Source: Syntrophus sp. (in: bacteria)
GTDB lineage: Bacteria > Desulfobacterota > Syntrophorhabdia > Syntrophorhabdales > Syntrophorhabdaceae
DNA: 64,000 bases
Reading direction: 5' to 3'
Assembly: GCA_013824835.1 (NCBI GenBank)
Contig: PNOM01000005.1
Span: 1-64,000, forward strand
Part shown: piece by piece, positions 8,276 through 25,185 of the stretch
Layout: every line of letters starts with the position of its first letter
Numbering within the stretch: position 1 is the stretch's first letter
Made by a program: the position numbers and the translations under genes
The notes under the pieces: generated by a model
The model's database searches: none
The model's input: only the letters and a program-made list of their open reading frames with translations
Told to the model about the DNA's origin: nothing

Positions 8276-8746
8276 ATGATTAGTGTTTCTATCCCCGGTT
8301 GGGGGGACCTTGACATAGAGTATCTTGTGGTTGACTATAATGGCACATGTGCTTTTGACGGAAAGCTCAAAGAAGGCGTTAAGGAAATTATGGAGAAGAT
8401 TTCCCGGCATATAAAGGTTTTTATCATCACTGCCGACTCCTATGGAAATATAGATAATGAAGGAAATACGATAGGTTTCAGTATTATAAAGGTGAACAAA
8501 GATCAGAGCGGCAAGGATAAGGCGCGGGTAATACGGGAACTGGGTCCTGAAAAGGTCGTTGCCATCGGGAATGGCGCCAATGACGCAACGATGTTAAAGG
8601 AGGCAGCCCTCGGTATCGGTGTAATAGGCGGAGAGGGGTGTTCCGCTATTCTTATGAAAGAAGCGGATCTCGTTGTGAATAACATCGTTGATGCCCTCGG
8701 GGTCATTCTTCATCCGGAAAGATTGCTGGCTACCTTGAGAGACTGA
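8276..8746 (+). CDS. Small soluble P-type-ATPase-like HAD protein
   Basis: A 156-residue HAD protein with motif I 'VVDYNGTCAFDG', in which the usual second Asp is Asn, a state like the DKTGT of P-type ATPases. Motif II is 'IITADS', and motif IV is 'IGNGANDATMLKEAALGIGV', close to the hinge motif of P-type ATPases. It corresponds to the soluble P-type ATPase-like group (COG4087 in my memory), whose role is unclear. GCAGAGGAGG precedes the ATG. It stands alone between the HAD gene and secA. Confidence 0.8.
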   Translation: MISVSIPGWGDLDIEYLVVDYNGTCAFDGKLKEGVKEIMEKISRHIKVFIITADSYGNIDNEGNTIGFSIIKVNKDQSGKDKARVIRELGPEKVVAIGNGANDATMLKEAALGIGVIGGEGCSAILMKEADLVVNNIVDALGVILHPERLLATLRD

Positions 8747-24440: not shown

Positions 24441-24446
24441 ATCAAC

Positions 24447-24568
24447 TACCCCGCAGCAGAGCTGCGAGGTATCAACGGAATGAGGAACATGATTATGCCC
24501 CCTCACCCTACCCTCTCCCGCGAGGGGCGAGGGAATATGGTTACCCCGAAGCAGAGCTTCGAGGAATC
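24447..24568. repeat. Cluster of small palindromic repeats
   Basis: Two related palindromes, TACCCCGCAGCAGAGCTGCG (from 24448) and TACCCCGAAGCAGAGCTTCG (from 24542), flank a third hairpin-forming stretch (24508-24532, CCCTCTCCCGCGAGGGG). These are REP-like intergenic palindromes. A related form (GCGGGCGTGAGCCCGTGAGG) occurs at about 43293-43312. Confidence 0.6.
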
Positions 24569-24633
24569 TATTGATTGAACGGAAACATAGGCAACACTTT
24601 TGTATTAATTAATAGACACTTGAAGGAGGTGCT

Positions 24634-24870
24634 ATGAACATTTTTATTAAATATTGTGGTGCTTGAAACTTTCTTCCCCAAGCTTCCCGGGCGGAAGCGG
24701 AATTGAGGGTAGATTATCCCGATTCAACTATTAAATTGATCAAAGGCAGCGGCGGTATCTTTGATGTAACGTGTAACGGCAAGTTGATCTACTCTAAACA
24801 AAATATTGAAGGACAGCGATTTCCCAATGATGGAGAAATTGCCAGGTTGATCAAACAGGAGATGGACTGA
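24634..24870 (+). CDS. SelW-like (Rdx family) selenoprotein
   Basis: A 78-residue thioredoxin-like protein read through an in-frame TGA at 24664-24666. The start is ATG 24634 behind AAGGAGGT. The N-terminus is IFIKYCGA-U-NFLPQA, giving the C-x-x-U redox motif (C8, U11) of the SelW/SelT/SelH (Rdx) family. Downstream text fits the same fold: 'ELRVDYPDSTIKLIKGSGGI', 'FDVTCNGKLIYSKQN' and 'GQRFPNDGEIARLIKQEM'. A hairpin of bacterial SECIS type follows the TGA at the proper distance. Without Sec readthrough the product would be a useless 10-mer. The role is presumably a thiol/selenol redox function. Alternative: a Cys-form gene with a nonsense mutation, but SECIS and intact downstream frame argue against it. 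Confidence 0.85.
24682..24698 (+). promoter_or_regulatory. Bacterial SECIS hairpin
   Basis: GCTTCC-CGGGC-GGAAGC forms a perfect 6-bp stem with a 5-base loop carrying G at the second position. The loop begins 21 bases after the TGA, within the 16-37 range known for bacterial SECIS elements. Two further G-C pairs (24678-24679 with 24699-24700) extend the stem past a two-base A bulge. It would recruit SelB with Sec-tRNA. Confidence 0.75.
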
Positions 24871-25185
24871 CTTTTAACTGAAATCGGGAAGACTGGAAGG
24901 CTGGGACCAGGTCTTGTATTATCACACATTATTTATTTGAGTTTCCCTGTCCCTAACTATTTTTCTTAACGCGATCATTCGGATTGGAATTGCAGGGAGG
25001 ATAAGTGTTGAGAATTTATTTGTTTTTGTCATGTAGTTTATGTATGATGAACCAAATATTATGTGTAGCAATGCGGAGATTTAAGACACAGTTTTATGGT
25101 AACAGCAACACCATTAACATGCAATTACAAGCATGAAGTGTCCATCAGAAAGTATTATGCCAGGGTTGGATAAAAAGGGATAATA
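24871..25185. other. Intergenic region with only a doubtful small ORF
   Basis: No clear gene. A 43-codon frame from GTG 25005 to TGA 25136 has GGGAGG upstream and a hydrophobic, Cys-containing start (MLRIYLFLSCSLCMMNQILC), but its tail is unlike a real protein and I do not annotate it as a gene. No terminator or strong promoter stands out. Confidence 0.4.

Follow-up and report, generated by a model that had tools for sequence, protein, structure and literature searches.

A very probable selW-like selenoprotein gene, with UGA at its redox site, in a Syntrophus genome

Introduction

SelW-like selenoproteins carrying a CxxU motif are established in bacteria, the present phylum included, and have been known since about 2005. 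They form the most abundant selenoprotein family of the Sargasso Sea (PMC1088965), rank among the most abundant families in the GOS data (PMC2398784), and are included in current catalogues of the selenoprotein families of prokaryotes (PMC9312934, PMC13188914). Desulfotalea psychrophila and Geobacter sulfurreducens are also recorded as having SelW-like selenoproteins (PMC1794560). The function of SelW is unclear, and its CXXU motif is suggestive of redox (PMC1088965). In the Epsilonproteobacteria, SelW genes have been missed in annotation (PMC4607533).

Here, we analyzed a stretch of 64,000 nucleotides from contig PNOM01000005.1 of Syntrophus sp. (hereafter called the “window”), in which positions 24634-24870 had been predicted, from the letters alone, to encode a hidden SelW-like selenoprotein. 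The gene shares with the bacterial SelW-like proteins (SELENOW-like, PF10262) the domain, the CxxU motif, the small single-domain architecture, and a SECIS element directly behind the UGA. It differs from them only in species and sequence, and we found no distinguishing architecture.

Results

The reading frame and the predicted fold

In the region read directly (24600-24900), an ATG at 24634 opens a run of ten codons ending in Tyr-Cys-Gly-Ala, followed by a TGA at 24664-24666. Beyond this TGA, the frame remains open for 67 sense codons and closes with another TGA at 24868-24870. The features of the locus, and the evidence for each, are listed below.

24623..24630, + strand: Shine-Dalgarno sequence AAGGAGGT (read directly in the sequence)
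24634..24870, + strand: selW-like gene, 78 aa, with Sec as residue 11 (Pfam Rdx, TIGR02174, close homologues, AlphaFold model)
24655..24666, + strand: C-x-x-Sec redox motif, TGT GGT GCT TGA (Cys8 invariant; UGA at the same codon in homologues)
24664-24666, + strand: UGA Sec codon (UGA at the same codon in homologues; Cys in loci L038 and L047)
24682..24698, + strand: core of the bacterial SECIS hairpin (base-pair probability, comparative pairing, compensatory changes, published bSECIS constraints)

Motifs of the AAGGAGG type occupy the place of the Shine-Dalgarno sequence in nearly all of the homologues from the same taxonomic family. Translated across the UGA, the frame gives MNIFIKYCGAUNFLPQASRAEAELRVDYPDSTIKLIKGSGGIFDVTCNGKLIYSKQNIEGQRFPNDGEIARLIKQEMD. 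The Pfam Rdx model (PF10262) matches the full read-through frame above its gathering score (E = 7.7e-17; 61.7 bits, cut-off 22.6), and the match covers residues 3-74 (profile positions 2-73 of 74), on both sides of the UGA. The original prediction had described an ATG, YCGA followed by TGA, and an intact Rdx-type frame downstream; all of these are seen in the sequence, and the Rdx match spans the UGA. In addition, the protein matches TIGR02174, the “SelT/SelW/SelH family” (E = 2.5e-14), as well as NF041051 (SelTWH_Campy). The latter model describes the SelW of the Epsilonproteobacteria, a different phylum from that of the window gene, and the 88 bits obtained are exactly the curated cut-off of 88, a match that is only borderline at this equivalog threshold.

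The AlphaFold model, built from 20 homologues, has a mean pLDDT of 96.5 and the element order beta-alpha-beta-beta-beta-alpha. The top 23 Foldseek matches of this model (E ≤ 0.001) are bacterial Rdx/SelW-type proteins, MIEN1, and mouse SelW, with TM-scores to the query of 0.75-0.87 for the crystal structures of bacterial SelW-related proteins and 0.64 for mouse SelW. The sequence matches in the PDB are also SelW-related bacterial proteins, C17orf37 (MIEN1), and mouse SelW, and both the predicted fold and the sequence match the Rdx structures 2FA8, 2OKA, 2OBK, 3DEX, and 2P0G, together with mouse SelW (2NPB). In 2FA8, the top PDB sequence match, a second Cys stands where the window protein has its UGA-encoded Sec. 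The window protein is thus predicted to adopt a thioredoxin-like fold of the Rdx/SelW type. In the model, the first beta strand spans residues 2-8 and a helix begins at residue 14; the CxxU motif, Cys8-Gly-Ala-U11, comes just behind this strand, where thioredoxin-like folds carry their CxxC redox motif. The assignment to the SelW/Rdx family with a CxxU motif, likewise part of the prediction, holds on the grounds of Pfam Rdx, TIGR02174, the predicted fold, and the motif itself.

A mechanical search yielded 136 UGA-interrupted frames in the window; among those overlapping little with other long frames, which were read by eye, only selW appeared selenoprotein-like. Between the upstream frame and selW (24441-24580), we observed the short repeated motifs CCCCGCAGCAGAGCTGCGAGG and CCCCGAAGCAGAGCTTCGAGG together with a CCCTCACCCTACCCTCTCCCGCGAGGGGCGAGGG stretch, which look like small intergenic repeats.

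Conservation of the UGA codon

The first search detected homologues in 18 of 119 related genomes. Among GTDB genomes, the named relatives comprise Syntrophus, Syntrophales, Syntrophaceae, and further delta-proteobacterial drafts, and one is labelled Cloacimonadota; judged by these relatives, the window probably belongs to the Syntrophales (Thermodesulfobacteriota). Within the same taxonomic family, where the occurrence is patchy (8 of 39 genomes), the homologues are 60-77% identical to the window protein where the full Sec form is present. Each has exactly one in-frame TGA, with two exceptions: the gene of G008, which is cut by the contig end, and the second copy in G001, described below. No homologue was found in the plasmid collection searched. 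When we applied the Pfam model to 297 genomes of the phylum, an Rdx gene was found in 41, and 38 of these genes contain an in-frame TGA, including one with an additional TAG (G154). The three genes without an in-frame TGA belong to G117, G135, and G149. G149 is from the same genus as G117. Two of the three, both single-copy relatives, were read, and Cys lies at the UGA position in each: G117 (Cys-Gly-Val-Cys) and G135 (Cys-Thr-Gln-Cys). Cys at this position was read in the loci L038 and L047. The prediction had been staked on homologues aligning Cys or Sec with the UGA, and UGA does occupy this very codon in the homologues, with Cys taking its place in G117 and G135.

Could the UGA be a damaged Cys codon? 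A degraded Rdx gene whose Cys codon (TGT or TGC) has turned into TGA, or a sequencing error with the same outcome, is conceivable: a single base separates UGA from a Cys codon, and forms with Cys do exist. However, the same UGA recurs in many independent genomes with the downstream frame intact, the third codon positions downstream of the UGA change fastest in most pairwise comparisons, and the synonymous sites of the SECIS stem described below are conserved by pairing. On the strength of the conserved UGA and the covarying SECIS, we dismissed decay or error as having next to no probability.

Two relatives deserve mention in their own right. One, L042 (JAQICU010000099.1), is a selW-like gene that shares 75% identity with the window protein and resides on a contig binned as Cloacimonadota, by horizontal transfer or mis-binning. 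Moreover, the UGA-form relative in G154 (L073, G154:C32:38644-38853) has its additional in-frame TAG in the following helix, indicative of a pseudogene or an assembly error.

The SECIS hairpin

Is the hairpin behind the UGA a genuine SECIS element? The stem consists of GCTTCC (24682-24687) paired with GGAAGC (24693-24698), and the six pairs, without a mismatch, enclose the five-nucleotide loop CGGGC (24688-24692), whose second base is G. The original prediction had reported a perfect 6-bp hairpin with a G in its loop, starting 21 bases after the TGA. The stem and the loop G stand, and the distance, the one error of the prediction, does not: the stem starts 15 nucleotides after the UGA and the loop 21, so the figure of 21 is the UGA-to-loop distance.

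Each of the six stem pairs has a probability of about 0.99 or more, and the minimum free energy is -15.5 kcal/mol for a 49-nucleotide stretch and -7.5 kcal/mol for the 17-nucleotide core. Nevertheless, the single-sequence folding test of the hairpin stretch in the window was not significant (z = -0.65), and 52 of 200 shuffles folded equally well; therefore, a lone hairpin proves nothing, and we set single-sequence folding aside as uninformative proof of a SECIS.

One may further suppose that the UGA does encode Sec in a real Rdx gene, with the hairpin being a mere by-product of the peptide (ASRAEA type) and some other signal serving SelB. In fact, the encoded residues largely dictate the codon positions at which four of the six pairs are found, and all six pairs also arise in about 5% of the synonymous recodings of the same peptide (976 of 20,000). 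The other two pairs, 24684-24696 and 24687-24693, lie wholly at third codon positions. We examined them in 39 distinct homologous sequences, aligned without gaps from the UGA, against a null of random synonymous recodings that follow the codon usage in the rest of these genes. These third-position pairs form without exception (78 of 78; 39/39 homologues for each pair), as compared to 25.8 ± 4.2 under the synonymous null, with a maximum of 39 in 2,000 recodings. Restricting the set to 11 divergent representatives (<75% identical) gave 22 of 22 pairs, as compared to 7.6 ± 2.2 (maximum 16). The pairing thus persists far above the null although the encoded residues differ, and the second loop base is G in all 39 homologues; we accordingly regard a by-product hairpin as very improbable.

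Covariation leads to the same SECIS reading. Among 28 sequences, the covariation score is 0.436, as compared to 0.193 for shuffled data (0/500) and at most 0.164 for slid structures, and three pairs have changed in both partners, in a compensatory manner. Other lineages often lack the lowest pair (24682-24698), so the conserved core comprises five pairs.

The bSECIS model specifies a loop of 3-9 nucleotides, an upper stem of 4-16 bp, a G in the first two loop positions, a UGA-to-loop distance of 16-37 nucleotides, and a minimum free energy of at most -7.5 kcal/mol (PMC13188914). The window hairpin lies within every one of these published limits, in loop (5 nucleotides), stem (6 bp), G (position 2), spacing (21 nucleotides), and free energy. 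The Rfam scan of the window at gathering thresholds returned only three tRNAs and no SECIS family match. The claim of a SECIS just behind the UGA is upheld by the third-position pairing, the covariation, and the published constraints. We consider the comparative test of the hairpin, unlike single-sequence folding, to be decisive.

The selenocysteine machinery

The prediction also hinged on selA, selB, selC, and selD, and all four exceed the curated cut-offs in the window's own assembly: tRNA-Sec (selC) with 71.4 bits (gathering 47) and, by reading, a UCA anticodon; SelB with 383 (cut-off 242); SelA with 581 (cut-off 268); and SelD with 370 (cut-off 125). This draft assembly has 235 contigs and a completeness of 93.87%. 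Because the sel genes are found on contigs other than that of selW, their assignment to the same genome depends on assembly or binning. The selD gene itself (L018, G000:C70) contains one in-frame UGA in the N-terminal active-site loop (GAGUASK), and one Fdh-alpha gene of the same assembly (fdhA, L077, G000:C43) contains one in-frame TGA. Together with selW, the genome thus has at least three probable selenoproteins.

UGA reassignment occurs in some lineages, and the codon might accordingly be read as another amino acid, by general reassignment or unprogrammed readthrough. In contrast, the genome contains the complete Sec machinery, with the UCA-anticodon tRNA-Sec, and the selW-like gene itself terminates in UGA (24868-24870). 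Furthermore, the homologous residue is Cys, the usual counterpart of Sec, and a SECIS is present. These observations make an amino acid other than Sec a very unlikely reading.

The machinery accompanies the UGA form in other genomes as well. Among 42 UGA-form genomes, tRNA-Sec was detected in 38 and SelB over the cut-off in 37, with at least one of the two in 41; G093, the only genome with neither over the cut-off, has a completeness of 82%. In the Cys-form genome G135, neither tRNA-Sec nor SelB is over the cut-off. G117 and G149, which lack the UGA form, do carry Sec machinery, and the machinery alone therefore does not dictate the UGA form.

A tandem Gly-type copy in a relative

In G001, from the same genus, two selW copies lie in tandem, about 570 bases apart: the UGA form at 8328-8552 and a second copy (L039, G001:C134:8895-9173) with GGA (Gly) in place of Sec/Cys and an extended C-terminus. 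Its SECIS stem has decayed, with one pair broken by a C-C mismatch and another reduced to a G-U wobble, and it keeps most of the fold residues and a good ribosome-binding site. Such a Gly-type second copy was found only in G001 among the 39 genomes of the family. It might be a specialized partner, or a non-redox SelW version, working beside the Sec copy; we consider this unlikely. If it were true, it would be relevant to the function of bacterial SelW.

Discussion

We conclude, with a probability of about 96%, that positions 24634-24870 constitute a genuine selW-like selenoprotein gene in which the UGA at 24664 is read as Sec. We infer the insertion of Sec at this codon, as well as the catalysis and the redox chemistry of the product.

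We propose the following mechanism, in which the SelB delivery step is modelled on the established bacterial system. The ribosome would start at the ATG at 24634. The SECIS hairpin in the mRNA, just past the UGA at 24664, would then recruit SelB with Sec-tRNA(Sec), bearing the UCA anticodon. Sec would be placed at the UGA, and translation would run on to 24868, producing a 78-residue Rdx protein with a thioredoxin-like fold. In this protein, the Cys8-x-x-Sec11 pair probably cycles between the selenenylsulfide and selenol/thiol forms, and the protein may serve as a small thiol-dependent oxidoreductase or redox carrier. A thiol-linked redox role of this kind would be the standard expectation for such a protein.

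What might its substrate be? The genes that immediately flank selW in the window were not found next to the homologues, and the gene order is not shared with the homologous loci; the neighbourhood comparison returned two unrelated similarities, involving more distant genes only. The neighbourhood therefore does not point to a substrate.

The window gene is a well-supported addition to a known selenoprotein family, and nothing in it alters the knowledge of selenium use. With a frame that breaks off after ten codons, it shows how such genes can escape annotation, and the prediction that standard gene callers would miss it is plausible. Both the patchy occurrence and the set of 39 SECIS sequences are useful for detecting genes of this kind.
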